Source of the DNA: Streptomyces sp. NBC_01754 | Lineage (GTDB): Bacteria; Actinomycetota; Actinomycetes; Streptomycetales; Streptomycetaceae | Direction: 5' to 3' | Assembly: GCF_035918015.1 (NCBI RefSeq) | Contig: NZ_CP109132.1 | Location: forward strand, 4,960,001 to 5,024,000 | Length of the DNA: 64,000 bases | Shown here: positions 10,247 through 25,032 of the stretch, piece after piece | Numbering within the stretch: position 1 is the first letter of the stretch | Layout of the letters: each line of letters begins with the position of its first letter | The notes under the pieces: generated by a model | The model's input: only the letters and a program-made list of their open reading frames with translations | Database searches by the model: none | Told to the model about the DNA's origin: nothing | Program-made: the position numbers and the translations under genes

Positions 10247-11335
10247 GTGTCGCTCACGATCGGAATCGTCGGCCTGCCGAATGTCGGCAAGTCGACCCTT
10301 TTCAACGCCCTGACCAAGAACGACGTACTGGCGGCCAACTACCCGTTCGCCACGATCGAGCCGAACGTCGGCGTGGTCGGCGTCCCGGACCCGCGCTTGG
10401 ACAAGCTCGCCGGGATCTTCGGCTCGCAGCGGATCCTCCCGGCCACGGTCGACTTCGTCGACATCGCCGGCATCGTGCGCGGTGCGAGCGAGGGCGAGGG
10501 CCTGGGCAACAAGTTCCTGGCGAACATCCGCGAATCGGACGCGATCTGCCAGGTCATCCGCGCCTTCAAGGACGAGAACGTCGTCCACGTCGACGGCAAG
10601 GTCTCGCCCAAGGACGACATCGAGACCATCAACACCGAGCTGATCCTCGCCGACCTCCAGTCCGTCGAGAAGGCCGTCCCGCGCCTCACGAAGGAGGCCC
10701 GCCTCCAGAAGGACAAGGTGGCGGTGCTCGCCGCGGTCGAGGAGGCCCAGAAGATCCTCGAGGCGGGCGACACCCTGTTCTCCCGGGGCATCACCGCCGG
10801 CACGGAGACGGGCCGCCTCCTGCACGAGCTGCACCTGCTCACCACGAAGCCGTTCCTGTACGTGTTCAACGTCGACGAGGACGAACTGGTCGACGAGGAC
10901 TTCAAGAACGAGCAGCGCGCCCTGGTCGCCCCGGCCGAGGCCATCTTCCTCAACGCCAAGATCGAGTCCGAGCTGATCGAACTGGACGACGACGAGGCCC
11001 TCGAACTCCTCCAGTCCATGGGCCAGGAAGAGCCGGGCCTGGCCACCCTCGGCCGCGTCGGCTTCACCACCCTGGGCCTTCAGACCTACCTCACGGCAGG
11101 CCCGAAGGAGGCCCGCGCCTGGACGATCAAGAAGGGTGCCACGGCCCCGGAGGCGGCCGGTGTGATCCACACCGACTTCCAGAAGGGCTTCATCAAGGCG
11201 GAGGTCATCTCCTTCGAGGACCTGGTCGAGACGGGCTCGGTCGCCGAGGCCCGCGCCAAGGGCAAGGCCCGGATGGAGGGCAAGGACTACGTGATGCAGG
11301 ACGGGGACGTGGTGGAGTTCCGCTTCAACGTCTAA
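10247..11335 (+). CDS. ychF: Redox-regulated ATPase/GTPase YchF (Obg family)
   Basis: A 362-residue YchF/OLA1 protein. The P-loop GLPNVGKST lies at 9-17, followed by the switch region ANYPFATIEPNVG and DFVDIAGIVRGASEGEGLGNKFLANIRE. The G4 position reads NVDEDEL instead of NKxD, the known reason YchF prefers ATP. The C-terminal TGS domain ends in VVEFRFNV. The GTG start has an upstream AGGAAG. The last 15 bp of coding sequence are the left attachment site of the mobile element that follows; the final valine codon's third base and the stop (GTC TAA) come from the element, and the lost native end (GTG TAG) is at the right junction. Confidence 0.97.
   Translation: MSLTIGIVGLPNVGKSTLFNALTKNDVLAANYPFATIEPNVGVVGVPDPRLDKLAGIFGSQRILPATVDFVDIAGIVRGASEGEGLGNKFLANIRESDAICQVIRAFKDENVVHVDGKVSPKDDIETINTELILADLQSVEKAVPRLTKEARLQKDKVAVLAAVEEAQKILEAGDTLFSRGITAGTETGRLLHELHLLTTKPFLYVFNVDEDELVDEDFKNEQRALVAPAEAIFLNAKIESELIELDDDEALELLQSMGQEEPGLATLGRVGFTTLGLQTYLTAGPKEARAWTIKKGATAPEAAGVIHTDFQKGFIKAEVISFEDLVETGSVAEARAKGKARMEGKDYVMQDGDVVEFRFNV
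11317..11331 (+). other. attL core (15-bp direct repeat in ychF)
   Basis: gttccgcttcaacgt, identical to 25018-25032. It covers codons for FRFN and two bases of the last valine codon of ychF. The element adds C and TAA to finish the gene. Confidence 0.93.
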
Positions 11336-11355
11336 TACGTTCGGCGAAAGGCCGT

Positions 11356-11372
11356 CTGACCTGCGGCGGAGC
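11356..11372 (+). repeat. Left subterminal inverted repeat of the element
   Basis: ctgacctgcggcggagc is the exact reverse complement of 24986-25002. It lies 24 bp inside the left core. A matching pair at both ends is the pattern of arm-type binding sites for integrase or excisionase. An overlapping hairpin-like pair (aaaggccg at 11348 and cggccttt at 11381) may also terminate ychF. Confidence 0.8.
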
Positions 11373-11443
11373 GGGTTGGGCGGCCTTTGCGGTCCGCACG
11401 GAGTCCGCAGCGTGCTGGATGGGTCCGGCACGCGGGGGAGCGG

Positions 11444-12562
11444 CTACGCCGCTTCGTCGACCTGTGGCTGGGTCTCGGCGGACTGGTCCGCGTACGCCTT
11501 GTCGACGGCGGCCCGGGTCCGCTCTTCGGAGTCGGGCCAAAGGTGGGTGTAGATGTTCAGCGTCATGGCCGCGTTGGTGTGGCCGAGGCGCTCGGAGACC
11601 GTCTTCACGGACTCGCCGTGCTTGATCAGCAGGCTGGCGTAGTGGTGCCGGAGGGCGTGGGGTCCGGTGCCCTTCGGTATGCCGGCCTTCGCACAGGCGG
11701 GCCGCCAGGACCCGTCCATGAAGTGCGTGTAGACCACGGGCCCGCCTTGCGGTGCCGTGAAGATCCAGCTCTCGGGCCCATCGGCGGGGAAGTCCCGCAG
11801 GTGGGCCTTCATCGCATCCACCGCTATGCGGGGGAGCGGGACCGTGCGGTGCGAGCGAGCGGTCTTGGGCGGGCAGACGTACACGCCGTGCTTGGCGGTC
11901 TGCTGGATCTGCTGCTCGACCGAGACGGTGGCATGCAGCAGGTCCACGTGCCGAAGCTGGAGGCCGAAGAGCTCGCCAGGGCGGAGCCCCGTGCATGCGC
12001 CCAGCAGGGCCAGGCCCTTGTAGCGGCCGGGTATCTCCTCGGCCAGCGTCCGCACCTGCTCGACGGCCAGGGGTACGACCTTTTTCCTCGGGACTGAGGG
12101 CAGCTTCGCGTCGGTGCAGGGGTTGTGCGGAATCATGCGGTCGCGGACTGCTGCCCGGAAGACGGCGTTGACCGTGTTGAAGACGGTGCGGGAGGTGCTC
12201 GCGGCGAGCTTGTGGGTGGTCGTCAGGCTGGTGATCCAGCTCTGAACGTCACCGGGCTTGATCGCGCCGAGTGCCCGCTTCTCCCAGACGGGGTAGGCGT
12301 AGCAACGTAGGTGCTGGGCTACGGCCTTGGCCGTCGACGGCCGGTGCGGCTGGCTGGCCCGCCACTCCTCCGCGTACTCCTTGAAGGGCTTCTTCGCCGA
12401 GCGCGGGTCGACGTACTGCCCGGTGACCACACTGGTCGTGACCTCGTCGAGCCAGCGCTGGGCGTCGATCTTGCGGTCGAAGTGGCGGGCGTGTTCCTTG
12501 CCGTCGAGGTCGCGGTAGCGGGCACGCCATTTGCCGTTGGGTCGCTTCTGGATGTTCGCCAA
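11444..12562 (-). CDS. int: Tyrosine-type site-specific integrase
   Basis: A 372-residue phage-type integrase. The N-terminal AP2-like arm-binding domain (about 1-60, KRPNGKWRARYRDLDGKEH) is followed by a SAM-like core-binding domain (60-150) and the catalytic domain. Catalytic residues are in place: Arg194 (TGLRPGEL), His302/Arg305 (HALRHHYAS), His328 (RLGHTN) and the nucleophile Tyr338 (NIYTHLW). The start is TTG with GGAGAAGCCAC upstream, which would keep expression low. It lies 24 bp after the XRE gene in the same transcript and about 110 bp from the left core, the usual place for an integrase acting on its own site. Confidence 0.96.
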   Translation of the reverse strand: MANIQKRPNGKWRARYRDLDGKEHARHFDRKIDAQRWLDEVTTSVVTGQYVDPRSAKKPFKEYAEEWRASQPHRPSTAKAVAQHLRCYAYPVWEKRALGAIKPGDVQSWITSLTTTHKLAASTSRTVFNTVNAVFRAAVRDRMIPHNPCTDAKLPSVPRKKVVPLAVEQVRTLAEEIPGRYKGLALLGACTGLRPGELFGLQLRHVDLLHATVSVEQQIQQTAKHGVYVCPPKTARSHRTVPLPRIAVDAMKAHLRDFPADGPESWIFTAPQGGPVVYTHFMDGSWRPACAKAGIPKGTGPHALRHHYASLLIKHGESVKTVSERLGHTNAAMTLNIYTHLWPDSEERTRAAVDKAYADQSAETQPQVDEAA

Positions 12563-12586
12563 GTGGCTTCTCCTTCGTGCTGGTTG

Positions 12587-13087
12587 TCAGTAGTGGCCGC
12601 CGTCCTCGATATCGCTGGTGAGAGTGCGAGCGTCCCGCTCGTCGCCCATGAGGCGGAGGCACTGCTCGTTGATCGCGCGTGAGCTGTCGGGGTGTGCCTT
12701 GATGTGGTCGGCGACGGCGACCACGGCGCGGTGCAGGCGGTCGCGGGCGTCGCGAGTTTCGTAGAACGCTTCGACGGCTTCCTGGACGAGTCGTCGGCTG
12801 TCGATGTCGAGCCCTTCCAAGGGCGGTGACATGAGCTCTTCGAGGGGCAGTTCGAAGACGCGGGAGAAGGCGAGCACCTCATCGAGGTTGATCCGACGGC
12901 GGGGTGAGCCGTTCTCAATGCGCCACACGGCCGTCTGGTTCATCTTCACGCCCGCTCTGGTCACCCGTTCGGCCAGCTCGGTCGTGCTCCACCCTCTGAC
13001 CTCGCGCTCCAGGGCCACGCGGCCCGCCACGTTGCCTTCGCTGTAGAGCAGCGGCACCTCGCCACCCTCGGGCTTCTCGCTTGCCAT
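12587..13087 (-). CDS. XRE-family helix-turn-helix regulator of the element
   Basis: A 166-residue DNA-binding protein. The HTH lies about residues 20-75: GRVALEREVRGWSTTELAERV, then TRAGVKMNQTAVWRIENGSPRRRINLDEV. The rest is helical without a known domain. The ATG at 13087 is chosen because GATGGAGGTTCG precedes it; an in-frame start 10 codons upstream lacks this. It is divergent from the excisionase and cotranscribed with int, so it probably controls the choice between integration and excision. The intervening 120 bp hold an inverted repeat that may be its operator. Confidence 0.9.
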   Translation of the reverse strand: MASEKPEGGEVPLLYSEGNVAGRVALEREVRGWSTTELAERVTRAGVKMNQTAVWRIENGSPRRRINLDEVLAFSRVFELPLEELMSPPLEGLDIDSRRLVQEAVEAFYETRDARDRLHRAVVAVADHIKAHPDSSRAINEQCLRLMGDERDARTLTSDIEDGGHY

Positions 13088-13138
13088 CGAACCTCCATCG
13101 CGACCGTCGCTATCCAAATTGAAACATGAGCTTCCCGG

Positions 13139-13198
13139 TTTGGCTAACCGCCGATCATGAGGTACTGATTATGCAGATCGAATCACTACTTAGCCAAA
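13139..13198. promoter_or_regulatory. Inverted repeat between regulator and excisionase (operator candidate)
   Basis: TTTGGCTAA at 13139-13147 and its exact complement TTAGCCAAA at 13190-13198, 42 bp apart, in an AT-rich divergent promoter region. A related half site, ATCCAAAT, lies at 13112-13119. The spacing suits two dimers of the XRE regulator or looping. The rightmost half covers the area just upstream of the excisionase start. Confidence 0.6.
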
Positions 13199-13207
13199 TG
13201 GGAACGC

Positions 13208-13402
13208 ATGCGATACCTGACCACCGCCGAGGTAGCCGAGCGCTACCGCACCGCCGAGAGCACCGTCCGTTACTGGCGCCATCTGGAGAAGGGACCGCGC
13301 GGCATCAAGATCGGAAAGCGGGTGCTTTACCCCGAGGCCGAACTGCTGCGCTACGAGCGCGCGCTGATCGACGGCGGAGAGGGCTGGGGTCTGGCCTCAT
13401 GA
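13208..13402 (+). CDS. Excisionase / AlpA-MerR-like HTH protein
   Basis: A 64-residue winged-helix protein: YLTTAEVAERYRTAESTVRYWRHL (3-26) and GIKIGKRVLYPEAELLRYE (31-49) form the helix-turn-helix and wing of the helix_turn_helix_17 (excisionase) family. Such proteins bend the att DNA and direct the integrase towards excision, and may also act as transcription factors. It is divergent from the XRE-int pair and leads the rightward module. Confidence 0.92.
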   Translation: MRYLTTAEVAERYRTAESTVRYWRHLEKGPRGIKIGKRVLYPEAELLRYERALIDGGEGWGLAS

Positions 13403-13429
13403 GTCACCGGCAGGTCCAGACACAGCAAA

Positions 13430-13457
13430 GGCCCCCGGCGCGCCAACGCCGAGGGCC
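13430..13457 (+). terminator. Hairpin after excisionase
   Basis: ggcccccggcg and cgccgagggcc form an 11-bp stem with one mismatch around a 6-nt loop (cgccaa), 28 bp after the excisionase stop. Likely weak terminator. Confidence 0.6.
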
Positions 13458-13500
13458 GGAGATTCCCCTGCACGTCGCCCATCCCTGAACGAACGAATCC

Positions 13501-13550: not shown

Positions 13551-15014
13551 ATGAAGGACCCTACGTCCCCCGCCACCTCGCACACATCCGGTGTCGTTTG
13601 GCCGCCCACTGCGGTTCCGGGCCAGGGCCTGCCTTGGGACCGGGAGGAGCGAACGGAACAGCAACGCAACACCGCAGGCGCCACCGCCGACGCCTCAACC
13701 GGCGTTCCGAATCGGAACGCGCTGGATACGCACTCTGCAGGGACCAGCACCCCGGCCACCGTGCTCGACAACACATACGATGCCGCTCCCGACGGACCAG
13801 AGGCCCAGGACGGTGGCGCGACGGCAGGTGCAGGTACCGCGCTTCTGGACGACCTCCGCACGGCAATCGGGCGGTACGTCGTTCTACCGAGCGACGAGGC
13901 CCTGACCGCCGTCACTCTCTGGGTCGCGGCCTCCCACATCCAGCCCGGCCTCCAGCACGCGCCACGGCTGGCGGTGGTCGGGCCGACCAAGGGGTGCGGC
14001 AAGTCCCGCCTCCTGGACGTTCTCTACGAGACCGTGCACCAGCCGATGATGACGGTGAACACCTCCCCCGCCGTCGTCTTCCGCGTCATCGGCAAGAACC
14101 CGCCGACGCTGCTGGTGGACGAGGCCGACACTATTTTCGGCCCCAAGGCGGGCGACAAGGAGGACCTGCGCGGCCTGCTGAACGCCGGGCACCAGCGCAA
14201 CCGGCCGGCTTGGCGGATCTCCGGGCCGGAGCACAAGCCGACCGCGTTCCCCACCTTCGCGATGGCCGCGTTGGCCGGTATCGGCGATCTGCCGGACACG
14301 ATCATGGACCGCGCGATCGTGATCCGCATGCAGAAGCGGAAGCCGGGCGAGCGGATCACCCCGTTCCGCTCGCGGTATTCAGTACCGGAACTGCACGCAC
14401 TGCGCGACCGGCTGGCCGACTGGCTGGTCCCCTTGCGCGGCACCGTCGCGGGCTCGGTGCCGAAAATGCCCGTCGAAGACCGCGCGGCTGACACGTGGGA
14501 GCCGCTGGTCATCGTCGCCGATCTCGCCGGTGGGCACTGGCCCGCGCGGGCACGTGTTGCCTGCCTGGCGATGACGCGCAGCGAGGTGGTCCAGGACGAG
14601 CAGACAACGCTGAAGACGCGACTGCTGCGTGACGTCCGCCGTGTCTTCGAGCAGGAGGGCGGCCGGGAGGCTCTGCGCAGCCAGGACCTGCTCGCCGTCC
14701 TCATCCAGGACGCCGAGGCTCCGTGGGCGGAGTACGGCACGAAGGGGCTCAACGCCTACCACCTGGCGAATCTGCTGCGCGACTTCGGCATTAGCCCGGC
14801 CAACTGCCGTTTCGAGAACGGCAGGCAGGCCAAGGCGTACGCCCGTAACCAGTTCGTGGATGCCTGGGCCCGCTACTGCCCTGACCCCGCCGCATCTGTA
14901 CGCACCGCCGGGGTCCCGGCACGTCCGACCCGGGGCAGGCCGCCCGCCCCTCCGTCCGGGACGCTGCCCACCGGCCCGCCGGGAGGGCCCGCAGGCCCCA
15001 GGCCCACTCGCTGA
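13551..15014 (+). CDS. DUF3631-domain P-loop ATPase (plasmid/ICE type)
   Basis: A 487-residue protein. Residues 1-95 are disordered. The ATPase core has a Walker A motif GPTKGCGKS (144-152) and a Walker B motif TLLVDEAD (186-193), then sensor-like MAALAGIGDLPDTIMDRAIVIRM. The C-terminal half (about 250-455) is the DUF3631 domain, ending in a Pro/Gly-rich tail. Such proteins are common on Streptomyces plasmids and integrative elements, where they resemble the helicase part of replication primases. A role in element replication or DNA processing is inferred; no primase motif is present. Confidence 0.88.
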   Translation: MKDPTSPATSHTSGVVWPPTAVPGQGLPWDREERTEQQRNTAGATADASTGVPNRNALDTHSAGTSTPATVLDNTYDAAPDGPEAQDGGATAGAGTALLDDLRTAIGRYVVLPSDEALTAVTLWVAASHIQPGLQHAPRLAVVGPTKGCGKSRLLDVLYETVHQPMMTVNTSPAVVFRVIGKNPPTLLVDEADTIFGPKAGDKEDLRGLLNAGHQRNRPAWRISGPEHKPTAFPTFAMAALAGIGDLPDTIMDRAIVIRMQKRKPGERITPFRSRYSVPELHALRDRLADWLVPLRGTVAGSVPKMPVEDRAADTWEPLVIVADLAGGHWPARARVACLAMTRSEVVQDEQTTLKTRLLRDVRRVFEQEGGREALRSQDLLAVLIQDAEAPWAEYGTKGLNAYHLANLLRDFGISPANCRFENGRQAKAYARNQFVDAWARYCPDPAASVRTAGVPARPTRGRPPAPPSGTLPTGPPGGPAGPRPTR

Positions 15015-15191
15015 CACCAGGCCGCATCAATCCGTCGCATCCGTCCCCGCGCAGGTCAGCGCGGGGACGGATCTCCTCGCCGTTACGGATCACTCCGTAC
15101 CTGCGGCCCTCTCCGTACCTGTGCTGACCAGCCATGCGACGGATGGGACGGACGCGACGCCCCCCACCCACACGACTGACGGAGCACCACA
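15015..15191 (+). other. Repeat-rich region, candidate oriT
   Basis: The 177 bp before mobC hold a perfect 14-bp hairpin (atccgtccccgcgc at 15039-15052, loop aggtca, complement at 15059-15072), an 11-bp inverted repeat atccgtcgcat (15030-15040, complement 15134-15144) and an 11-bp direct repeat ctccgtacctg (15093-15103 and 15111-15121). Such hairpins and iterons next to a mobC-relaxase pair are typical of a transfer origin. No nick site can be assigned. Confidence 0.6.
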
Positions 15192-15896
15192 GTGTCCGAA
15201 TCGAAGGACGACAACACCACCTCCTGCCGCCGCAGGAAGCTGTTCAGGCTCCCCCGACGAACAGCAGCAAGCTGGAGCGAACGAGCCTCTAACGAGGCTT
15301 CGTCCGCGCTTGCCCCCGCCCCAGGGGTGGCGGAGGACGAGGCCGAGCGCCAGGGGGCGCCCGAGCCGGAGCAGGGGGTGGCTGAGGACTCTGGCCAGCC
15401 TGCCGCCGCCTCCATCCCTCCCGGCACGCCGGCTACGGCAGCGTTGCCCGTCGAGCAGCCCTCCTGGCGAGATCTCGACGCCCCCGCCCTGCCCGCGCAG
15501 ATGAACCGCAAGCGCACCGTCGAGAGGCGCGACCAGGAGAAGACCATCCGCTTCACGCCCAGCGCGGTTGAGGAGATCAGCGTCGCCGCTCAGCAGTGTG
15601 GTCAGAGGTTCGCCGGATTCGTCGGGGACGCGGCCCTGGCCGTCGCACGGGGCACAGCAGGGATGCTCGGCAGCCCTGAGGACGATCCTCTGCGCCCGCT
15701 GATCGAGGCCGTCGAGGCGCACACGGTCGCGCTCAACCGCATCGGCAGCAACCTCAACCAGATCACCGCAGCCATCAACCGAGGGACCGTGCCCGAGCGA
15801 GCGGAAGCGGTCCTCGACCGCGTCGAGCAAGCGGCACACAACAGCTACCACCTCATCGACCAGCTGCTCGCGGAAGGCGTACCTCATGGTTCCTGA
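15192..15896 (+). CDS. mobC: MobC-like relaxosome accessory protein
   Basis: A 234-residue protein. The first 95 residues are low-complexity Ala/Pro/Glu. The conserved part has a basic stretch RKRTVERRDQEKTIRFTPSAVEEI (ribbon-helix-helix-like, about 106-129) and the MobC signature LNRIGSNLNQITAAINRG (about 181-198). MobC proteins help open DNA at oriT and load the relaxase. The GTG start has an upstream GGAG. The last 11 bp overlap the relaxase gene, which implies coupled translation. Confidence 0.9.
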   Translation: MSESKDDNTTSCRRRKLFRLPRRTAASWSERASNEASSALAPAPGVAEDEAERQGAPEPEQGVAEDSGQPAAASIPPGTPATAALPVEQPSWRDLDAPALPAQMNRKRTVERRDQEKTIRFTPSAVEEISVAAQQCGQRFAGFVGDAALAVARGTAGMLGSPEDDPLRPLIEAVEAHTVALNRIGSNLNQITAAINRGTVPERAEAVLDRVEQAAHNSYHLIDQLLAEGVPHGS

Positions 15897-17583
15897 CGTC
15901 TCCACCGGCTCCGACAGCCGCGGACTGATCGCCTACCTCTTCGGCCCCGGCCGCCGCGACGAGCACACCAACCCCCACATCGTCGCCGCCTGGGACATGG
16001 CCGGCGCTCCCGACCCCGGCCGCGACCCGGCAGCCACCTACACCCAGCTCGCCAAACGACTCGACCACCACGTCGACCTCCGCACCCGCGAGCTCGGCGG
16101 CAAGAAGCCACCGCAGCACGTCTGGCACTGCCCGGTCCGCACCGCCCCCGGCGACCGCTACCTCACCGACAACGAGTGGGCCGAGGTCGCCCGCCGCGTC
16201 GTGCACGCCACGGGCATCGCCCCCGAAGGCGACGAGAGGGCATGCCGATGGATCGCGGTCCGCCATGCTGACGACCACATCCACATCATGGCCACCACCG
16301 TCCGCGCCGACGGACGCCACCCCCGCACCCACCAGGACGGCCGACGCGCCCAGGCCGAGTGCCGTCGGATCGAGGCCGAGTTCGGCCTGCGCCGCCTGAA
16401 GTCCGGCGACCTCACCGCGCCTCGCACCCCCACCGGTGCCGAGCGCGCCAAGGCCGAGCGCCAGGGCCAGTCGGTGACGGCACGGCAGTGGTTGCGCGAG
16501 CGGGCGTACGCGGTCGCCGCCGCCGTGCACACCGAGGCTGACTACTTCACCGTGCTGCAGTCCCTCGGCATCAAGGTCAAAACGCGCCTCGGCCCCGAGA
16601 GCGGCGACGTGATCGGCTACAGCCTCGCCGCACCCGGCGACACCAACAGCGCCGGCGACCCCGTCTGGTACGGCGGCTCGAAACTCGCGCCCGACATCTC
16701 GATCAACCGCCTCCGCGAACGCCTCCCCGACCAGGAGATAGCTGACCGCCCCCGATTCCCGGCGGATCCCGCGGAGCCGTGGCAGCACACCATCGCCGCG
16801 ATACAGATGGCGCACACCGCCCTCGACTCCGACGACGATGCCGCCGCCCAAGGTCACCTCGCCGCCTTCGGTGACGCCCTCTACAACATCGCCAGCGCCA
16901 CACCCGGCCCCCACCGCGCAGAGCTCCGCGCAGCCGCCTCGGCCTACAACCGCGCCCGCCGATCCGCCACCCGCGCCGACCACCAAGCAGCCCACGCCCT
17001 ACGCCAAGCCGCCAAGGAACTCGCCTACGCCTCCAACGAACCCGGCGGACTCGCCATCGCCCTGCTCTTCGCCACCGTCCACCTGGCCCGCGCCGCCGCC
17101 AAGTGGCACGAACAGCGCGGCCACGAACAACAGGCCGCAGCAGCCGACGAAGCCCTCCGCCACCTCCAGGCCGGCTACCAGCAGGCCGCCACACCCGTCC
17201 TGGCCGACCTGACCCGCCGCGCCCCACGAGCCGAGACCGCCCGCCGCTTCGAACAGGACCTCCGCGCCGCCCTCCCCGACCACGCCGACCACATCATGGC
17301 CGACCCCTCCTGGGCTGCGCTGACCACGACCCTCGCCCGCGCCGAAACCAACGGCCACAACGCCCGCCGCCTCCTGGTCCAGGTGGGCACCGCGCGGGAA
17401 CTCGACAGTGCCGAGCGCCCTGCCGAGGTCCTGAACTGGCGCATCATCGCCCAGCCGAATCGACGGACGCAGGCGGCTCAGAGCCGAAGCACCTTCAGGC
17501 AGGCGTCACTGGTTCCTTCCGCGCAAGACACTTCGGCTGCCCCAGTAGCGAGGAGGGCTGAAGACCGCGGTCGGCGCCGCTGA
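15886..17583 (+). CDS. HUH relaxase / mobilization nuclease
   Basis: A 565-residue relaxase. The metal-binding histidine triad is seen in HADDHIHI (His127, His131, His133), inside RWIAVRHADDHIHIMATTVRADG. An upstream HVWHCPVRTAPGDRYLTDNEW segment (78-98) is also typical of this actinobacterial family. The nick-forming tyrosine is expected near the N-terminus (Tyr17 in GLIAYLFGPGR). The C-terminal half is a long Ala-rich helical region of unknown role. It nicks one strand at oriT and leads it into the recipient. With no TraB/FtsK or type IV coupling gene on the element, transfer must use a helper. Confidence 0.93.
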   Translation: MVPDVSTGSDSRGLIAYLFGPGRRDEHTNPHIVAAWDMAGAPDPGRDPAATYTQLAKRLDHHVDLRTRELGGKKPPQHVWHCPVRTAPGDRYLTDNEWAEVARRVVHATGIAPEGDERACRWIAVRHADDHIHIMATTVRADGRHPRTHQDGRRAQAECRRIEAEFGLRRLKSGDLTAPRTPTGAERAKAERQGQSVTARQWLRERAYAVAAAVHTEADYFTVLQSLGIKVKTRLGPESGDVIGYSLAAPGDTNSAGDPVWYGGSKLAPDISINRLRERLPDQEIADRPRFPADPAEPWQHTIAAIQMAHTALDSDDDAAAQGHLAAFGDALYNIASATPGPHRAELRAAASAYNRARRSATRADHQAAHALRQAAKELAYASNEPGGLAIALLFATVHLARAAAKWHEQRGHEQQAAAADEALRHLQAGYQQAATPVLADLTRRAPRAETARRFEQDLRAALPDHADHIMADPSWAALTTTLARAETNGHNARRLLVQVGTARELDSAERPAEVLNWRIIAQPNRRTQAAQSRSTFRQASLVPSAQDTSAAPVARRAEDRGRRR

Positions 17584-17634: not shown

Positions 17635-18168
17635 TCAACGGCAAAGCTTCTCGATGGTGTCATCGAAGTCAGAGAACTCGTGCGCAGCCTGGTCGATGAT
17701 CGCTGCGGCTGGCGCACGGTGGTTTGGAGCAAATCGCTCCGCAACAGCAGCCAGGTCACGATTGACCTGCGGAGCCCGATCGGGCTCGGGCTCATCCGAA
17801 GTAGCGGCCTCCCACGGACCGAAGCCGTCGGCCAGCAGCCACAGGAAGGCACCCATGTCGCGGGCGACGACTCCTGTCTCACCTTCTGAGCCCAGGAAAA
17901 CGACGGGCTGCTGCGCGAGCTCCCTACCCGGCCGAACCAGCCAGAACGCCGCGTAACCGCCGGTGCCGTCTTGGCCGAAGACACGGAACTCGTCCCCGTT
18001 CACCTCGGTGTTGCCCGTCCACGCGCGAAACCAGTCAGTGGTCTCATCGGCAGACAGGAAGCACTCATAGGGCTCGAAGTCGACGCCGTCCTCGCCGATG
18101 CACTCAATCCGAACTGCCATCGCAGCGGCAAGGGCGTCGGGAAACTGGCGATCTTCGTTTGCGGTCAC
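17635..18168 (-). CDS. Probable SUKH (SMI1/KNR4-like) family protein
   Basis: A 177-residue acidic protein. The layout fits the SUKH superfamily: a strand with VNGDEFRVFGQDGTGGYAAFWLV, then QPVVFLGSEGETGVVARDMGAFLWLLADGFGPWEA. SUKH proteins are often immunity proteins against polymorphic toxins, but many stand alone. No toxin gene is adjacent; the neighbour on one side is the relaxase, convergent with it. The assignment is by pattern only and moderately sure. It belongs to the cargo of the element. Confidence 0.72.
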   Translation of the reverse strand: MTANEDRQFPDALAAAMAVRIECIGEDGVDFEPYECFLSADETTDWFRAWTGNTEVNGDEFRVFGQDGTGGYAAFWLVRPGRELAQQPVVFLGSEGETGVVARDMGAFLWLLADGFGPWEAATSDEPEPDRAPQVNRDLAAVAERFAPNHRAPAAAIIDQAAHEFSDFDDTIEKLCR

Positions 18169-18250
18169 GCGAAGAGACTATCGATCGCCTCTTGATGGAC
18201 ACCGCCGCCTACCTCGCCTACACCGCAACCGAGACGAGGTGGACGGCAGG

Positions 18251-18916
18251 TCAGCCGTCGTCGTCCGCACCTCCTCGCAGGCCCCACTCGTCGAGGCCGG
18301 AGTAGATCACCGCAGTGCGGCCTCTGGGGAAGTTCAGCGCAGCGGCCTCACCGCTGTAGAGAGCGATCAACGCATCTTGCCCTCGCCACCAGGTGTCCGT
18401 CAGGCCCATCACCTCGCGTACTTGCACGTAACCCGTCAAGTCGATGCTGGCGACGTCCTCTCCGACGAGCTTGGTGACCTGTTTCGCCCACCCGGATGCA
18501 TGGTGGGCCAGGGCCACCGACTCCACCCACCCCTCGATGGTTGCGTGGAGAGGGGCCCACTCTTCTGCCTGCATGCCGAACTCACCGGACGGACTGATCA
18601 TGAACGAGTAGGGGACCGCGGTGCGCTGCATTCCGGCTTCGAACCACCATCCTGCGGAGTCCTCCTCCGGCGAGTCCGGATCGAGGTACTTGGGGCCTCC
18701 GTCGTACTGCGGTGCGGGTGGCAGGAGCAGACCGCCCCATCGGTCCTGGTAGGCCGCCATCCGATCAATCACCGCTGGTGGAACGTCTCGTTCGAGCCAC
18801 CACTCCCGGTGCCCCTCAACGGGGCGAACGTCTACTTTGACGCCGTGCGTGCCGACAAAGGTTCGCGCTCGTCGGGTCAGGCCGTCGGGCACATCGTTGA
18901 TGAGGTGAAGTTTCAT
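18251..18916 (-). CDS. Hypothetical protein, 221 aa
   Basis: I do not recognise this protein. It begins MKLHLINDVPDGLTRRARTF, is rich in Trp (REWWLER, DRWGGLL, GWWFEAG, DTWWRGQD) and acidic residues, and has no membrane segment or metal motif. The C-terminal half (YVQVREVMGLTDTWWRGQDALIALYSGEAAALNFPRGRTAVIYSGLDEWGL) has a strand-turn pattern that could be another SUKH-like or immunity fold, but this is a guess. It is on the same strand as the SUKH-like gene, about 80 bp upstream of it, so the two may be cotranscribed. Confidence 0.75.
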   Translation of the reverse strand: MKLHLINDVPDGLTRRARTFVGTHGVKVDVRPVEGHREWWLERDVPPAVIDRMAAYQDRWGGLLLPPAPQYDGGPKYLDPDSPEEDSAGWWFEAGMQRTAVPYSFMISPSGEFGMQAEEWAPLHATIEGWVESVALAHHASGWAKQVTKLVGEDVASIDLTGYVQVREVMGLTDTWWRGQDALIALYSGEAAALNFPRGRTAVIYSGLDEWGLRGGADDDG

Positions 18917-19029
18917 CCGAGGACGCTACCCGGCTGGTGCAGGCGGGGCCTTGACCGGCTTCCGGAGGCAGAGAGCCCCAACAACGAGACTCGCTCTCTC
19001 CCCGCCCGCGGCGGCGAGGGCATCGGTCG

Positions 19030-19575
19030 TCAGGCGGCGCGAGTTGTGGGTACCTGTGTGACCCACCTCGTGGCCTCGGTCAGGTGCTCGGGCTGTAGAC
19101 CGAGGTGCGGGTCGGGCTGAATGAGGAGAGTCGCCGCTCCCTTCGTAGTGCGCTCCATCGCCCAGTCATGGTCGAGGCCGGTGAAGTCGTCGTCGATCCA
19201 GACGGCGGGGGCGTCGGCCAGCCAGACGTCGATGTGGTCTCGTTTCCAGAGGTAGCCGTCGGGGTGGCTGGTGGTGATCTGAGGGCGAGGCAGGTCGATG
19301 TAAGGGAAGTCGGGCAGCCCCAGGAGAGGGCCGATGATCGTGGTGGCGTCCCTGCGCCAGCTCGTGCACCACACGGGAGTGACGAGCCCGCTGGTCAGGA
19401 GGTCGGCGAGGATGCGGCCCTGGCTCGGGTCGAGCCAGATGGGCACGGGGTCGTCGGGGTGTCGGCCGGTGGGCAGGACGGTGTGGCGGACGTGGGTGGG
19501 CGGGGTGCTCCCGTCGGCGGCCGGGAACGGGATGAGGACGCCGTCGATGTCGAGAAGCAGGTAGGGCAGGGGCAT
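19030..19575 (-). CDS. HAD-superfamily phosphatase (RNA-repair HAD type)
   Basis: A 181-residue HAD-fold protein. The catalytic DxD is LLLDIDGVL (Asp9, Asp11). CTSWRRDA (about 69-76) supplies the motif II Ser/Thr, and KRD near 111 and WIDDDF near 126-131 supply motifs III and IV. The DIDGVL-plus-WCTSW pattern is that of the HAD domain seen in 'Swiss army knife' RNA-repair proteins and in many stand-alone actinobacterial proteins. It follows the methyltransferase gene by 15 bp and is last in a four-gene minus-strand set. Substrate unknown. Confidence 0.85.
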   Translation of the reverse strand: MPLPYLLLDIDGVLIPFPAADGSTPPTHVRHTVLPTGRHPDDPVPIWLDPSQGRILADLLTSGLVTPVWCTSWRRDATTIIGPLLGLPDFPYIDLPRPQITTSHPDGYLWKRDHIDVWLADAPAVWIDDDFTGLDHDWAMERTTKGAATLLIQPDPHLGLQPEHLTEATRWVTQVPTTRAA

Positions 19576-19590
19576 CGGTGCCTCCGTCGG

Positions 19591-20283
19591 TCAGCGTTTG
19601 CGGGCGGTGATCAGGAGGGTGGTGGGCCACGGGTCAAGGCGCGGGTGCCGCAGCTCCACCGTCGAGGTGACGCCCAGGCCCGCCCGGGAGAGGTGGGCTC
19701 CCCAGCGGCGGGCGTCGAACTCCCATCGAGCGAGGGGCAGTCGGGTGCGGTTGGGCATGGTGACGTAGTCCTCGCGCGGACGGTCGTCCGTGGATGGATG
19801 TCTTCCGGCCCGTGCCGGGTGAGGGACGGAGAAGGCCAGGACACCGCCCGGTTTCAAGCGTCGGGAAATGGCGGCGAGGAGGAGCTCGGGGGCGACGAGG
19901 CCGACGGCGCCGAAGACGGAGTAGATCGCGTCGAAGGTCTGGCCGGTGGCCTGCAGGTGGTGCAGTGCGTGGCCGGCGGCGAAGGTGGCGCCGTCGATGT
20001 GGCCGTAGTGGGAGCGGGCCCGGCGTACCTGGAGGCCGATCAGGTCCACGCCGGTGACGCGGGCCTGGTGATGCTTCGCGAGGTGGGCCACGTTGTGGCC
20101 GGGGCCGCAGCCCAGCTCCAAGACGCGCTTGCCGCACAGGTCCCGTCCCAGGACCTCGGCGCCGGGACCGATGCCCGCGTGGGTGCTCCACTCCATCCGG
20201 GCAGGTGCGCTGAGAGCATGCGCGGGAGCAGTGGCTGTGCGCTGGGCTGCGTGGGCGTACCAGGGGGAGACCTGGGCGAGCAC
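19591..20283 (-). CDS. Class I SAM-dependent methyltransferase
   Basis: A 230-residue Rossmann-fold methyltransferase. Motif I VLELGCGPGHN lies at 54-64, the acidic loop VTGVDLIGLQV about 20 residues further, then a motif IV-like FDAIYSVFGAVGL and RRLKPGGVLAFSVPHP. It resembles small-molecule (UbiE/Tam-like) methyltransferases, but the acceptor is unknown. Its start codon lies directly against the stop of the upstream kinase gene (20284), so the two are translated together. Confidence 0.92.
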   Translation of the reverse strand: MLAQVSPWYAHAAQRTATAPAHALSAPARMEWSTHAGIGPGAEVLGRDLCGKRVLELGCGPGHNVAHLAKHHQARVTGVDLIGLQVRRARSHYGHIDGATFAAGHALHHLQATGQTFDAIYSVFGAVGLVAPELLLAAISRRLKPGGVLAFSVPHPARAGRHPSTDDRPREDYVTMPNRTRLPLARWEFDARRWGAHLSRAGLGVTSTVELRHPRLDPWPTTLLITARKR

Positions 20284-21195
20284 CTAGACCTCCAGGAGTT
20301 GGACCACGTCGTTCAGGTGGCGGCAGACGACGGGGATGTGCGCGGGGTCCTTGGCCGGGTCGTCGATCCAGCGGATGGCCTGTTCCATGAACCACTCCAC
20401 GGCCCACATGCGGTGCCAGCCCAGGGCCCATGCCTCGGCGGCGAGGCCGCCCCGGGCGGCGAGGGCATCTTCATGACCGCCTGCGGTGACGTACTGCTCC
20501 AGGAACACCCGCATGCGGAAGGGGCTCGGTACGTCGGTGGTGCCGTGGTAGGAGGCGAGGTCGATAAGGCCGGGTCCGGTGAAGGCGCGTGCGAAGTCGA
20601 GGAGGTGCCAGCCGTTCTCGCCGATGTGGACGCTCGTGGGGTGGAACTCGGAGTGGACCCAGCCGAACGGGTCGAGCGTCGCCCCCTGGACGCGGGTCTC
20701 GGCCGCGGCGGAGATCTTCCCCAGCGCGGTCTCGATGTCGTCGCAGTCCGTCCATCGGTCGGCTTTTCGCAGCCGCTGGAGGTGATCGAGGGCTCGGCCG
20801 GGCAGGGCTGCGAGGCCGGCACCGTCGAGGAGGGGCAGACCGCCCGCCGGGCGGGCGGCGTGGAGCATGACGGCGGCGGCGACGCCGTCGAGGTCGTCTG
20901 CGTCCCGTACGGGGGTGCCGAGGTCGTCCATGAGCATCCCGAGCCACTTGTCCTGCAGGGCGGTGGCGTGGAGCGCGGGGACCGGGAGCCGTCGCTGGTA
21001 GGCCAATCGCAGGGCCTGGGCCTCGCGGTCGAAGGGTTCCTTGGCGTATTTGAAGACGGCCGTGGTGCTGTCGGGGAAGGTGACGCGTTCGACGCCGGAC
21101 ATGCCCCAGACGCGAATCTCGGTACGTTCGGGGAGGGGCTTGCCGATGAGAGCGCACAGGTCGTTCAGCAGGGTGGCGGACAGGCTCTGGTCCAT
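20284..21195 (-). CDS. APH-like phosphotransferase with altered catalytic loop
   Basis: A 303-residue protein of the aminoglycoside phosphotransferase/choline-kinase fold. N-lobe: TTAVFKYAKEPFDREAQAL, with Lys49 as probable ATP lysine. The catalytic loop reads WVHSEFHPTSVHI at 179-191 where the family has HxDxxxxN: the catalytic Asp is Glu183 and the metal Asn is Ser188. The metal-binding Asp of the LLDFARA segment (Asp200) is kept. Without a clean Brenner motif it may be inactive or may use another chemistry; I would not call it antibiotic resistance. It abuts the methyltransferase gene. Confidence 0.85.
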   Translation of the reverse strand: MDQSLSATLLNDLCALIGKPLPERTEIRVWGMSGVERVTFPDSTTAVFKYAKEPFDREAQALRLAYQRRLPVPALHATALQDKWLGMLMDDLGTPVRDADDLDGVAAAVMLHAARPAGGLPLLDGAGLAALPGRALDHLQRLRKADRWTDCDDIETALGKISAAAETRVQGATLDPFGWVHSEFHPTSVHIGENGWHLLDFARAFTGPGLIDLASYHGTTDVPSPFRMRVFLEQYVTAGGHEDALAARGGLAAEAWALGWHRMWAVEWFMEQAIRWIDDPAKDPAHIPVVCRHLNDVVQLLEV

Positions 21196-21274
21196 GGGGG
21201 TCTCCAGGGGACTGGTGGGCTCCGGGGTGGGCGCGCGCGAGCTGGCCCGCCCCGGAGCGGTACTGGGGGTGGGG

Positions 21275-22060
21275 TTACTCGGCTGCGGTCACGCGGTGGG
21301 CGTAGACCTGCTCGATCCAGCCCGCCTTGAACTCGGCCAGGTCGTCACGGAAGTTGGCCATCGAGGCACCGTAGGGCGCGACGACGCCGCCGGACTGGTC
21401 CGGCACGGACTGGCAGCCGTGCACGAGCCGGCCGCCGAGCGCGGCGTGGGCCTTGATGGACTCGATCCGTCGATGCTCGTTGAACCAGCCGCCGTGGTAG
21501 ACCTCGTCGAGCATTCCGCCCGTCTCGTCGTCCAGGTCGAAGACGACGGAGGTGGCGGCGGGGAAGAACCAGCACGGGCCGACGTTGGAGATGTGCCCGT
21601 CCAGCTCGACCTTGTTGAGGGCCATCAGCGTCGCTGCCTCGCGCAGCATGCGCAGGTGGTCGGTGGTGATCTGCGGGAGGCCGAGGCCGGCCAGGTGTTC
21701 CTCGCGGAAGAGGTACGAGTACACCCCGTACGCCGTCGCCAGCACGCGGGCCGCGTCGGAGGTGGACTCGCCGTGGTTCTTGATGAAGTCGAGCGCGAGC
21801 TGCTCGACCGCGCTCTCGGTCGTCTCGTCCACGTCGAGGAGCTGGGCCTTCACCAAGTCCCAGTCGGCGACGAGCCAGGTGCTGGACTCGAAGCGGAAGA
21901 AGTACTCGGCCGGGTCGATGGTGATGCGCCGGCCGTCCACCTGGATGCCGGGCAGGCGGTTCCAGCGCGGGTCGAAGGCGTCGGGCAGCTCGACCGTGAT
22001 GGTCGCGGTGTCGATGGTGGTCACCGTGTCTCCGTCTCTGATCGTCCGGGCCCGGGGCAC
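21275..22060 (-). CDS. Hypothetical protein, 261 aa, first gene of the cargo set
   Basis: I do not recognise this family. The sequence is a soluble alpha/beta protein with few repeats. Notable segments are RRITIDPAEYFFRFESSTWLV, the helical stretch SAVEQLALDFIKNHGESTSDAARVLATAYGVYSYLF, SNVGPCWFFPAATSVVFDLDDETG and GGRLVHGCQSVPDQSGGVVAPYG. Two lone cysteines (in GPCWFF and HGCQS) could be functional. The start may be the GTG 12 codons in (VTTIDTATITVELP). It is 80 bp upstream of the kinase gene and divergent from the XRE-TPR regulator across about 165 bp. Confidence 0.8.
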   Translation of the reverse strand: MPRARTIRDGDTVTTIDTATITVELPDAFDPRWNRLPGIQVDGRRITIDPAEYFFRFESSTWLVADWDLVKAQLLDVDETTESAVEQLALDFIKNHGESTSDAARVLATAYGVYSYLFREEHLAGLGLPQITTDHLRMLREAATLMALNKVELDGHISNVGPCWFFPAATSVVFDLDDETGGMLDEVYHGGWFNEHRRIESIKAHAALGGRLVHGCQSVPDQSGGVVAPYGASMANFRDDLAEFKAGWIEQVYAHRVTAAE

Positions 22061-22226
22061 AGGAATGCCCGAGCCCGTTAGGGCGTACGGAACTTGGGGC
22101 CGCCCGGCCCGCGATGCCGTGAGTGGGGCGGCTGTCGATAAGTGAACCGTCCGCTACGCAGAGTGGGTACGGTGTGAGCGAGGCCAAGCGGTATACACGG
22201 TTTACGGATCCGGAGCGGAGGCGATC

Positions 22227-23582
22227 GTGCCGGCACCGACCAGCGCCAACTCCCGCCTGCGCGACACGATCAACGCGGCCGGGTGCACGTACGAGGCACT
22301 CGCCAAGGACGTACGCCGCATCGCCGCCGAGAACGGCGAACTGCTCCAGACCAACAAGTCGGCAATCTCCCACTGGGTGGTCGGTGCCCGCACGCCGTCC
22401 GGCCAGGCAGGCCAATACCTCGCCGAAGCCCTCTCCCGGCGGCTGGGCCGCGTCGTCACCCGAACCGAGCTCGGCCTCCACTCACCCGACACGGAGTCGC
22501 CGCCGGAAACCGACCCCGTCACCGCGGTCACCGACCTCGGCCGCGCGGACGTCGAGCGCCGCCGCTTCCTCGCCATCGCCGCCTTCACTACGGCCGGAGT
22601 GGCCATGCCGCTCCTGCACGACCACGAAGCCACTTCGCGAATGCTCCGTGCCCGCACCGCCCGCTCCCTCGTGGGCAGCGATGACATCGACGTCGTACGG
22701 CAGATCACGGCAGCCTTCAGCGCCGCCGACGAACGCCTCGGCGGCGGCCACGGCCTGACCACCGTCACCGCATACCTCGCCGACACGGCCGCCCCCATGC
22801 TGCGCGGCCGCTTCCCCACAGAAGCCTTACGCCATGCAGCCTTCGGCGCCGTCGCCGAACTCGCCTACCTCGCAGGATGGAAGCACCACGACCTCGGCCA
22901 CGAAGGCGCAGCCCAGCGCTACTACCAGGTCGGCTACCAACTCGCCTGCGAAGCCGACCCCCACGGCCACGCCGCCTGGATGATGCGCGCCCTCGCCCAC
23001 CAGTCCCTCAGCCTCAAGCAACCCCACCACTGCGTGGACCTCGTCAAAGGAGCCCTCACCCGCGGCCTCGGCCACGTGGACGGCCAGACCGAAGCGCTCC
23101 TCCACATCACGCACGCCCGCGCCTACGCAGCCGTAGGCGAGAACCCACTGGCCGCCCGAGCTCTCCTCGCCGCCGAAGACGCACTCCTGCGCGAGGACGG
23201 ACCCCAGCCCAGCTTCTCCCGCGTAAGCGGCCCCGCCGCCGGCACCGTGTCCAGCCACACCGCACGCACGCTGACCGATCTCGCCGACCACATCGGTACG
23301 GAACAGCAGCACCGCGACGCGCTAACCCGCTGGGACCCGGAGAAGTACAAGCGCGTCCACGCCCTCACTCACGCCGACCTCGGCGACAGCCTTGCCGCCC
23401 AGGCCCGAGCCGATGAAGCTGTCGCGGCCTGGACCCAGGCCCTGGTCCTCATGGAGGGCATGACCTCCGACCGCACCCGCAAGGCGATCACCTCGATCCG
23501 CTCCACGCTCGCGATCTACCAGCGCCGTCGCGTCCCCGGAGCCGCAGATCTCGCCCGCCGAGCCCGCGAGGCCCTCGCCTAA
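22227..23582 (+). CDS. XRE-family regulator with TPR-like C-terminal domain
   Basis: A 451-residue regulator. The N-terminus has an HTH (about 8-70: RLRDTINAAGCTYEALAKDV, then NKSAISHWVVGARTPSGQAGQYLAEALSRRLG). A linker with RRRFLAIAAFTTAGVAMPLL follows. Residues about 180-445 are helical repeats (AWMMRALAHQSLSLKQ, ALLHITHARAYAAVGENPLAARALL, RVHALTHADLGDSLAAQARADEAVAAWTQAL), a TPR array typical of Streptomyces regulators that bind a peptide or metabolite. The GTG start has GGAGCGGAGGCG upstream. It probably controls the divergent four-gene set and its own NUDIX partner. Confidence 0.92.
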   Translation: MPAPTSANSRLRDTINAAGCTYEALAKDVRRIAAENGELLQTNKSAISHWVVGARTPSGQAGQYLAEALSRRLGRVVTRTELGLHSPDTESPPETDPVTAVTDLGRADVERRRFLAIAAFTTAGVAMPLLHDHEATSRMLRARTARSLVGSDDIDVVRQITAAFSAADERLGGGHGLTTVTAYLADTAAPMLRGRFPTEALRHAAFGAVAELAYLAGWKHHDLGHEGAAQRYYQVGYQLACEADPHGHAAWMMRALAHQSLSLKQPHHCVDLVKGALTRGLGHVDGQTEALLHITHARAYAAVGENPLAARALLAAEDALLREDGPQPSFSRVSGPAAGTVSSHTARTLTDLADHIGTEQQHRDALTRWDPEKYKRVHALTHADLGDSLAAQARADEAVAAWTQALVLMEGMTSDRTRKAITSIRSTLAIYQRRRVPGAADLARRAREALA

Positions 23583-23583
23583 C

Positions 23584-24120
23584 ATGCCCAACAACCTGCC
23601 CGACGAAGGGAACCCCGTGGCTCAGCAGACCGACAACCGCCCCCCAGTTCTCAAGCCGGCGCTCGAATCGATGACCCTGCTCGTCGCGGCCGTCATCGTC
23701 CACGACAAGGCCACCAACCGCGTCGTACTCCTCCAGCGCAGCGAGAACGCCAAGTTCGCCCAGGGCATGTGGGACCTCCCCGTTGGCAAGAGCGAGCCCG
23801 GCGAGCCCATCACCGAGACCGCAGTCCGCGAGCTCTACGAGGAGACCGGCCTCACGGTGGCGCCCGAGTCCCTCAAAGTCGGCCACATCATCCACAGCGC
23901 ATGGGGCGTTGAGGCCCCCAATGGCTTCCTCACGGTTGTCTTCGCCACCCACGAATGGACGGGCGAACCCGAAAACCGTGAACCCCGCAAGCACTCCCAG
24001 GTCCGTTGGGTCGAGGCCAATGCCATCCCTGAAGCCTTCGTGGACACAACTGCCAGCGCTCTCCGTCTGTACTTGAATGGTGGTACCGAGGTCTCCCTGG
24101 CCGGCTGGTCAAAAGATTAA
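23584..24120 (+). CDS. NUDIX hydrolase
   Basis: A 178-residue NUDIX protein. The NUDIX box runs from Gly68 to Leu90 and matches Gx5Ex7REUxEExGU exactly, ending VRELYEETGL. Such enzymes cleave nucleoside diphosphates linked to another group; the substrate is unknown. The gene begins one base after the regulator's stop, so it is coupled to it. An in-frame GTG at 23617 (VAQQTDNRP), preceded by GAAGGGAACCCC, may be the real start, since the ATG at 23584 lacks its own ribosome site. Confidence 0.92.
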   Translation: MPNNLPDEGNPVAQQTDNRPPVLKPALESMTLLVAAVIVHDKATNRVVLLQRSENAKFAQGMWDLPVGKSEPGEPITETAVRELYEETGLTVAPESLKVGHIIHSAWGVEAPNGFLTVVFATHEWTGEPENREPRKHSQVRWVEANAIPEAFVDTTASALRLYLNGGTEVSLAGWSKD

Positions 24121-24735: not shown

Positions 24736-24870
24736 CCACGCCCCGGCGTAACTGAGGATTCCTCGGTGTGCGGGAGGTGCTGAGTAGCTGGTCAGAGTGA
24801 CCGCGGCCCTTCGGAGCCCCCATATCGAGGTGGCCGCGGCAGGCATCGACACCGTGGAGTAGAGGGAGGG

Positions 24871-24907
24871 CTGGCTGCGGACTGGCACGCTGTCAGTCCG
24901 CAGCCAG
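24871..24907. repeat. Perfect hairpin near the element's right end
   Basis: ctggctgcggactg (24871-24884) and its exact complement (24894-24907), 9-bp loop. It lies 110 bp inside the right core. It may be a recombination-protein site or a terminator for the preceding small gene. Confidence 0.7.
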
Positions 24908-24985
24908 TCCGCAGGACACCCGTAAGCGGCCGTCGGGAGCCAACGCATCCCAACGAGGAATTCCCAGGTCAGAGCCCTAGACGGG

Positions 24986-25002
24986 GCTCCGCCGCAGGTC
25001 AG
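24986..25002 (-). repeat. Right subterminal inverted repeat of the element
   Basis: gctccgccgcaggtcag, exact reverse complement of 11356-11372 at the left end; 15 bp inside the right core. Likely integrase or excisionase arm site. Confidence 0.8.
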
Positions 25003-25017
25003 GATCAGACCGCAGAC

Positions 25018-25032
25018 GTTCCGCTTCAACGT
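25018..25032 (+). other. attR core (15-bp direct repeat, displaced end of ychF)
   Basis: Identical to 11317-11331. Followed by g-tag, so the pre-insertion gene ended FRFNV then TAG. Sequence to the right is the original downstream flank of ychF. Confidence 0.93.

Follow-up and report, generated by a model that had tools for sequence, protein, structure and literature searches.

The window, 64,000 nucleotides of Streptomyces sp. NBC_01754 (contig NZ_CP109132.1, positions 4,960,001 to 5,024,000), carries in the last codons of the GTPase gene ychF a 13.7-kb mobile element (11317-25032) that is flanked on both sides by exact 15-bp copies. From its genes, this element is classified as an integrative and mobilizable element (IME). 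We consider it very probable, on the basis of sequence comparisons, that it is an IME with a modular integrase, placed at ychF and retargeted by exchange of a specificity cassette. The integrase would recombine the attP core with the ychF 3' end; its N-terminal ~55 residues would bind arm sites, GCAGGTCA / TGACCTGC, common to a wider IME family, and its core-binding and catalytic part, of ychF type or sodN type depending on the family member, would set the target. The evidence comes from the boundaries of the element, its empty sites, its gene content, a breakpoint in the integrase gene, conserved arm sites and a mixed relaxase phylogeny.

Insertion into the 3' end of ychF

The target gene, the ends of the element and the adjoining flank are the following:

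10247..11335, plus strand: ychF, target gene (Pfam YchF-GTPase_C, MMR_HSR1), with its last codons from the element
11317..11331, plus strand: attL, 15-bp core copy, from sequence
11347..11388, plus strand: hairpin of 18 pairs right after the restored stop, candidate replacement terminator between the convergent ychF and integrase (int) genes
11356..11372, plus strand: left arm-type site CTGACCTGCGGCGGAGC, found again in inverse orientation at the right end without mismatch over 17 bp
24986..25002, minus strand: right arm-type site, GCTCCGCCGCAGGTCAG on the plus strand, reverse complement of the left site
25018..25032, plus strand: attR, 15-bp core copy, from sequence, then the displaced host GTAG
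25033..25986, plus strand: flank formerly joined to ychF, with a terminator-like hairpin, a small open reading frame (ORF, 25253-25591) and a PIN-domain gene (25573-25986); joined in L196, L208 and L226

A sequence-only reading of the window had placed a 15-bp direct repeat at both ends, and GTTCCGCTTCAACGT indeed occurs exactly at 11317-11331 and 25018-25032 and nowhere else in the whole window. With three mismatches two more matches appear (17627 and 44951), giving four at up to three mismatches against 1.19 expected; as 4 of 100 shuffles also reach four, weight attaches to the exact pair rather than to this loose count. The 18-base form of the core, published as the aviX1 border discussed below, is found with at most two mismatches at both ends only (0 and 1 mismatch), and its shuffles give no match. 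The left copy is the end of ychF (GAG TTC CGC TTC AAC GTC TAA) and the right copy encodes FRFNV and a stop (TTC CGC TTC AAC GTG TAG), both as that reading had proposed: the element gives C and TAA in place of the displaced host G and TAG, the attL side restores the Val and stop of YchF, and the protein is identical. All 50 distinct left ends listed, a few of which belong to other element types, begin with the third base and a stop, in a pattern that did not demand a stop.

The reading had also predicted that uninterrupted relatives would join ychF directly to the sequence from 25033 onward. Three relatives without the element do so, running from FRFNV-stop straight into homologues that take in both genes after 25033 (the ORF at 25253 and the PIN gene at 25573). 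Against the joined flank (ychF end plus 25018 onward), L208 aligns over 1,025 bp at 92.5%, L196 over 202 bp at 91.6% and 739 bp at 92.4%, and L226 over 203 bp at 89.7% and 732 bp at 90.7%, all free of the element, which establishes that the insertion is real and precise. The expected recurrence of the same integrase beside ychF was likewise found, directly behind the gene in other Streptomyces strains. A tRNA gene was rejected as the target: ARAGORN finds none in the window and none in 17 of 18 sodN-type integrase loci, the sole one (tRNA-Val, L096:3439-3512) lying away from the integrase.

The predicted attP at the circle junction contains CGCAGACGTTCCGCTTCAACGTCTAATACG, with a core of perfect 7-bp inverted arms, AGACGTT and AACGTCT, around the 7-bp spacer CCGCTTC. 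Inverted arms around a spacer are the form expected of a tyrosine-recombinase core. When attP is rebuilt from attR and attL in 13 elements, the left arm is AGAC(G/A)TT in 10, the middle CCGCTTC in 12 and the right arm AACGTCT in all 13. Core position 12 is variant in 4 of 13 attR copies and in no attL copy, and this confinement to attR places the exchange point left of position 12. Core position 6 was discarded as a means of mapping the exchange overlap, being uninformative (G072 has G at both ends).

The fold of 11332-11400 reaches -40.5 kcal/mol (z -4.67; 0 of 200 shuffles as stable), and pairing holds in 97.1% of 449 cells from 25 left ends, against 33-57% when the pairing is slid. Two pairs are changed on both sides, a covariation reached by 30 of 500 shuffles. 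Since the hairpin overlaps an arm site, it is read only with caution as a replacement terminator. The end of the element gives ychF the codon for its final Val and a stop, together with a strong hairpin that may act as terminator, and so leaves the gene intact.

That the 15-bp repeats bound a dead island, with integrase and relaxase as relics, is very unlikely. Decayed copies do exist at ychF, one with a TGA inside int (G180) and others with integrase fragments (L162, L174, L175), but in the window the int, DUF3631 and relaxase frames are open and the att sites intact, and the family is patchy and found in many strains of the genus.

One element family at two protein genes, ychF and sodN

As read from sequence, the cassette family has two targets. 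The integrases next closest to that of the window (46-48% identity in the whole-genome search, 40-45% in locus recruitment) are located at the 3' end of sodN; the target gene scanned in L099 is a Sod_Ni, nickel superoxide dismutase. The sodN end is present at all 42 loci tested and directly beside the integrase in 39, and in 13 of 16 fetched loci the 15-bp repeat GGAGACCAAGAAGGC, in some cases altered at one position, is seen in both its copies. The genes inland of sodN match those of the ychF element: a homologue of its helix-turn-helix (HTH) gene is found in 42 of 43 loci and one of its relaxase in 37 of 43, some of the loci without the latter being cut by contig ends.

The two kinds of integrase gene are alike up to a sharp joint. 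Cross-site DNA identity of int is 0.95 over nucleotides 1-60, 0.91 over 61-120 and 0.84 over 121-165, and in successive segments after nucleotide 165 it is 0.47, 0.39, 0.52, 0.49, 0.59, 0.51 and 0.64; within a site type it is 0.84-0.97 throughout (19 ychF and 37 sodN genes, all required to contain NIQKRPNG; 60 random pairs per class). Because these loci were recruited partly by the N-terminal peptide QKRPNGKW (best 80 of 112 loci), the N-terminal match in that set is ascertained. Loci from the whole-genome search, which involved no such recruitment, give the same picture: 14 sodN-type genes match the window at 0.90-0.97, 0.88-0.97 and 0.78-0.91 in the first three segments and at 0.57-0.67 and below past the third (22 of 25 loci, L012-L021 and L026-L040 with L012, L019 and L038 excluded; an open frame with HxLRH and RPNG was needed). 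In a structure model of the integrase (strands 2-6, 12-17 and 23-28, helix 31-47, next helix from 60), the joint near codon 55 falls in the linker from helix 31-47 to helix 60-70. Three strands and a helix, here residues 2-47, are what we take to be the known shape of an arm-binding domain, and residues 1-~55 are accordingly predicted from the model to form one.

An explanation without any swap would have the ychF and sodN integrases as ordinary divergent homologues whose N-terminal domain is under stronger purifying selection, and the conserved arm sites could impose such a constraint on an arm-binding domain. We regard this as unlikely, since DNA identity, silent positions included, drops from 0.84-0.95 to 0.47 at one segment boundary, and since, among integrases of one site type, the catalytic part too keeps an identity of 0.84-0.97. 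Moreover, ~600 nt upstream together with the int start match at 82-94% in 42 of 43 sodN-type loci, and the relaxase tree mixes the two types. This tree (53 rows: 17 ychF, 34 sodN, 2 other) needs 13 site-label changes against a mean of 14.4 for shuffled labels, 130 of 500 shuffles being as low, and its supported branches force at least 4. The relaxase nearest to that of the window belongs to a sodN element and is 89% identical.

The right ends of both types carry the arm motif GCAGGTCA, at 25, 55 and 108 nt from the core at ychF and at 27, 57 and 110 nt at sodN. The first site is seen in every right end of the sample, 25 nt from the core in all 12 from ychF and 27 nt in all 12 from sodN (the sample comprises 12 of 13 ychF right ends, L173 being left out, and 12 of 13 sodN pairs, L271 being left out for other DNA before its second copy). 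The nearest arm copy is 0.99 identical across sites and its neighbouring stretches 0.36 and 0.48. Beyond 58 nt, cross-site identity is 0.59-0.68, so that the joint at the right end is not sharp. At the left end the motif stands 21 nt from the core at sodN (14 of 14 listed) and ~24-25 nt at ychF.

Exchange of an integrase specificity cassette is thus the most likely mechanism behind the occupancy of sodN and ychF, and we conclude from these comparisons that catalytic part and core probably travel together, as one cassette, from IME to IME within a single family. It seems reasonably probable that the exchangeable unit consists of int codons ~56 to the end plus the attP core, flanked by the int N-terminus and HTH gene and by the right-end arm array, and that co-resident elements swap it with arms and backbone unchanged. 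Exchange between elements, probably by homologous recombination across the int N-terminus and the right-end arms, would move the backbone between the two protein-gene sites. Some strains hold both element types (e.g. S. dysideae RV15, ISL-12 and S. galbus), so the recombination partners do meet.

Several points weigh against cassette exchange by a living IME, or temper it. The confidence of the integrase model is low overall (mean predicted local distance difference test, pLDDT, 65; predicted template modelling score, pTM, 0.38), with block means of 83-87 over residues 1-40. The outer arm sites are not in every element: at ychF the second (54-55 nt) is seen in 8 of 12 and the third (106-108 nt) in 9 of 12, and at sodN the third (110 nt) in only 6 of 12, the second (57 nt) being present in 12 of 12. 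In 3 of the 42 sodN loci (L095, L116, L119) the integrase is not beside the gene, and in 3 of the 16 fetched ones (L268, L272, L276) the repeat pair was not seen. The relaxase tree was built quickly: support is below 80% in 25 of its 50 inner branches, and some rows took their site label from the integrase type because the stretch fetched did not reach the att site. For the HTH tree, 7 site changes is a bare count, without shuffles. The conserved hairpin overlaps an arm site, and variation on both sides is seen in few of its pairs. The MobC-like and HTH proteins were identified by sub-cut-off matches, and excision, circle and transfer are predictions from sequence.

Besides ychF and sodN, three other genes have at their 3' end an integrase related to that of the window: a parE-like gene (L069, 78% identity), an iron-repressor gene (L066, 68%) and an aldehyde-dehydrogenase gene (L022, 62%). 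These neighbours suggest possible further targets; no convincing far repeat was found in the fetched stretches, and they are therefore kept as leads.

Gene content and class of the element

Between its two ends the element carries the following features:

11444..12562, minus strand: tyrosine integrase (int), 372 aa, TTG start (PF00589, PF22022)
12587..13117, minus strand: HTH protein next to int (weak HTH_31, 21.5 bits against a cut-off of 27), conserved in relatives
13126..13488, plus strand: conserved ORF without family, conserved in relatives
13551..15014, plus strand: DUF3631 protein (PF12307, 240.5 bits)
15039..15072, no strand: candidate origin of transfer (oriT), a 14-bp perfect inverted repeat with a 6-nt loop, between the DUF3631 gene and mobC, upstream of mobC
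15192..15896, plus strand: MobC-like relaxosome protein (sub-cut-off MobC and NikA-like matches), overlapping the relaxase start
15886..17583, plus strand: relaxase (PF03432, above cut-off)
17594..22145, no strand: variable cargo between relaxase and NsdA-like regulator, with spacing that varies among relatives
19030..19575, minus strand: cargo HAD_SAK_2 protein (family match; codon composition)
19591..20283, minus strand: cargo methyltransferase (family match; codon composition)
20284..21195, minus strand: cargo gene without family (codon composition)
21275..22060, minus strand: cargo gene without family (codon composition)
22227..23582, plus strand: NsdA-family TPR regulator (NF053720, 351.6 bits against 75)
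23584..24120, plus strand: NUDIX protein (PF00293)

The sequence-only reading had drawn the class of the element from its integrase, relaxase and MobC. The first two labels are firm (78.2 bits against a cut-off of 27.1 and 36.9 against 24.6) and that of MobC is weak (MobC 20.4 bits against 23.2; NikA-like 20.2 against 27). PF22022 (Phage_int_M) covers integrase residues 60-152 and PF00589 (Phage_integrase) residues 168-341, and R194, H302, R305, H328 and Y338, presumed to be catalytic, are invariant in 14 relatives; we take this R...H-x-x-R...H...Y set to be the catalytic one of a tyrosine integrase. The HTH protein beside int is possibly a regulator or excision factor. DNA around the candidate oriT matches at 81-94%, in some cases in part, in all 22 chosen relatives of both site types.

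The element thus combines a site-specific integrase and flanking att repeats with a relaxase of its own, which is conserved in relatives. Neither PF01580 (FtsK_SpoIIIE) nor PF12846 (VirB4) is found inside the element in 8 genomes, where all FtsK_SpoIIIE and VirB4-type domains sit outside it, nor is any such conjugation domain found among the scanned ORFs of the window; PF02534 was not searched genome-wide. Transfer would begin at the oriT upstream of mobC, by means of the relaxase, and would pass through the conjugation machinery of a helper, a course that we infer from the genes present, as we do the activity and mobilization of the element. It is most unlikely that this is instead a TraB-type actinomycete integrative and conjugative element (AICE). 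It does possess a replication function of the AICE type (RepSA, RepAM/DUF3631 or Prim-Pol) by virtue of PF12307, the DUF3631 domain being the RepAM replication function and a marker of AICEs, and it has a NUDIX gene as in pSAM2, whose NUDIX immunity protein Pif is described in the same account (PMC3218068, available part). Against this, the TraB/FtsK-type double-strand DNA translocase of an AICE was not found, the FtsK_SpoIIIE domain being absent from the element in the 8 genomes, and relaxase and MobC-like gene are conserved in relatives. By analogy, the NUDIX protein of the IME may be compared to Pif.

The same gene order is present in G163, G137, G032, G072, G287, G277 and G093 (the last ending within the NsdA-like gene), with varying spacing from relaxase to NsdA-like gene. 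Elements with both ends seen, remnants excluded, range from ~8.4 kb (G180, degraded) up to ~22 kb (G137, G072) and 24 kb (G277, whose left end has additional DNA next to it). In L164, L056, L070 and L157, ~4.7-7.5 kb of extra DNA lies between left end and integrase or within the int 3' end. As for the cargo of the window, the minus-strand pair at 19030-20283 joins a HAD domain named after RNA-repair proteins (HAD_SAK_2) to a methyltransferase. Long plus-strand ORFs at 18098-21330 have no family and fail the codon-composition filter, and the minus-strand genes were preferred.

Known systems and accretion at the ychF end

An 18-bp border, TAGACGTTGAAGCGGAAC, has been published for the aviX1 islands of plant-pathogenic Streptomyces (PMC10711302), for which transfer and integration at aviX1 have been reported (PMC8369830). 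This border is the exact reverse complement of window 11317-11334, from which we infer that aviX1 is ychF. The sequence-only reading is to be corrected on this point: as a Streptomyces attachment site, the ychF 3' end was already in print under the other name. According to the available passages of both papers, the aviX1 islands TR1.A and TR2 resemble the present case in attachment site, tandem arrays and integrase-less modules, the arrays and modules here being seen in other strains. The present element differs in its size of 13.7 kb and its MobC/relaxase backbone, and those passages do not describe it.

Other known systems share part of these features. AICEs of the pSAM2 kind have a tyrosine integrase, DUF3631/RepAM, a NUDIX gene and accretion at one site, whereas the present element has mobC and a relaxase and no TraB (PMC3218068 and PMC9513070, in part). 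The nearest precedent seen is an AICE family at two sites, tRNA-Val and rlmN, whose integrase and excisionase are divergent at rlmN (PMC9513070); here, by contrast, the integrases part only past codon ~55, and the HTH gene next to int is common to both element types. IMEs are alike in having their own relaxase while coupling-protein and mating-pore genes are not found (PMC5704250; for Streptomyces IMEs, PMC9513070). In the portions available, a 2017 review recorded one canonical IME in Actinobacteria (PMC5704250), and IMEs were later described in 8 of 11 Streptomyces strains (PMC9513070); the present family is found at two protein-gene sites. PAISt of S. turgidiscabies likewise uses a protein-gene 3' end (bacA), modular excision and a tyrosine recombinase, but its site is TTCATGAA and it is a large integrative and conjugative element (PMC4057263, in part). 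Pneumococcal prophages next to ychF were rejected as users of the same site, being located upstream of the gene and not at its 3' end in the passages available (PMC8637289, PMC10383233).

The ychF/aviX1 site and the general kind of element are, then, known already. A single IME family placed at two protein genes, with the switch at the level of integrase domains, looks new, as it was not found in the open-licence literature searched: among the matches listed there, no title or abstract was on point for a natural swap of integrase arm domains or for sodN islands, and PMC12884075, in its accessible part, has no ychF, sodN or domain-swap term. For a site-specific element to acquire a new target, its integrase and attP have to change in concert, and how this comes about is an open question. 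One backbone at two sites, with a sharp joint at the predicted boundary of arm- and core-binding domains and with the arm sites kept, allows target switching to be tested directly through domain exchange, and points to a rule by which tyrosine integrases of actinomycetes might be retargeted. In addition, the ychF/aviX1 end, familiar from Streptomyces that cause scab, serves as a site of accretion elsewhere in the genus as well.

An integrase that is 90% or more identical over 340 residues or more is present in 11 of 295 congeners (own genome included), and fragments in 4 more. Thirty-six named loci group with the integrase of the window: in 27 the left end lies directly behind ychF, in 3 the core is behind other DNA and in 6 no core was seen within the fetched stretch. 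Ends of ychF were found in 137 of 150 genomes, and 80 of them were taken with up to 12 kb downstream, by assembly contiguity (L244, L250 and L255 are shorter stretches). As these 80 exclude element genomes fetched earlier, several of them occupied (G000, G012, G024, G032, G054, G065, G072, G088, G120, G122, G137, G143), the proportion that has a second core should not be read as a rate of occupancy. A second core copy lies forward in 16 (one mismatch) or 9 (exact) of the 80 under the stricter pattern, with none in reverse, and in 16 forward and 2 reverse under the looser one; 200 shuffled cores match 0.045 loci on average (maximum 2). Several loci are multi-core arrays (L173, L174, L167/L161, L165/L155), and a second tyrosine integrase, ~30% identical, stands at ychF at the right end of other elements (L167:11947-13125, near-copy in L258). 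Arrays and another integrase at the same site identify the ychF end as an accretion hotspot. The second integrase was discarded as a family member, given its ~30% identity and, in L167, the absence of the shared N-terminus.

Some loci have cassettes resembling PIN-domain toxin-antitoxin systems between two ychF cores ~0.8-1.4 kb apart (L176:1274-2371, L174 minus strand 1555-2947, L201, L202, L239); such small cassettes are possibly cis-mobilizable mini-elements. In the first 120 nt after the core of L182-L261, GCAGGTCAG, the arm motif in the opposite direction, is present with at most one mismatch in 42 of the 80 ychF ends, where chance would give 0.038 per 120 nt; most copies stand at position 43-44. 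The 'empty' sites with this motif may be old element ends, or the motif may have a role of its own.

The right flank of the element, although joined to ychF in empty relatives as the sequence-only reading had expected, is not plain conserved chromosome. Genes known near ychF in several other strains reappear only at ~43.7 kb of the window, for which reason 25.0-43.7 kb looks like variable DNA too. Left of that point, 25.25-26.3 kb is shared with 3 of the 80 loci, the PIN gene with at most 5 and 28.8-29.3 kb with 1. The content of 25033-43700 is the PIN pair and an rve/HTH_21 transposase (26276-27337), then genes for a transporter, an amidohydrolase, an aldehyde dehydrogenase, a luciferase-like protein and a PucR-type regulator.

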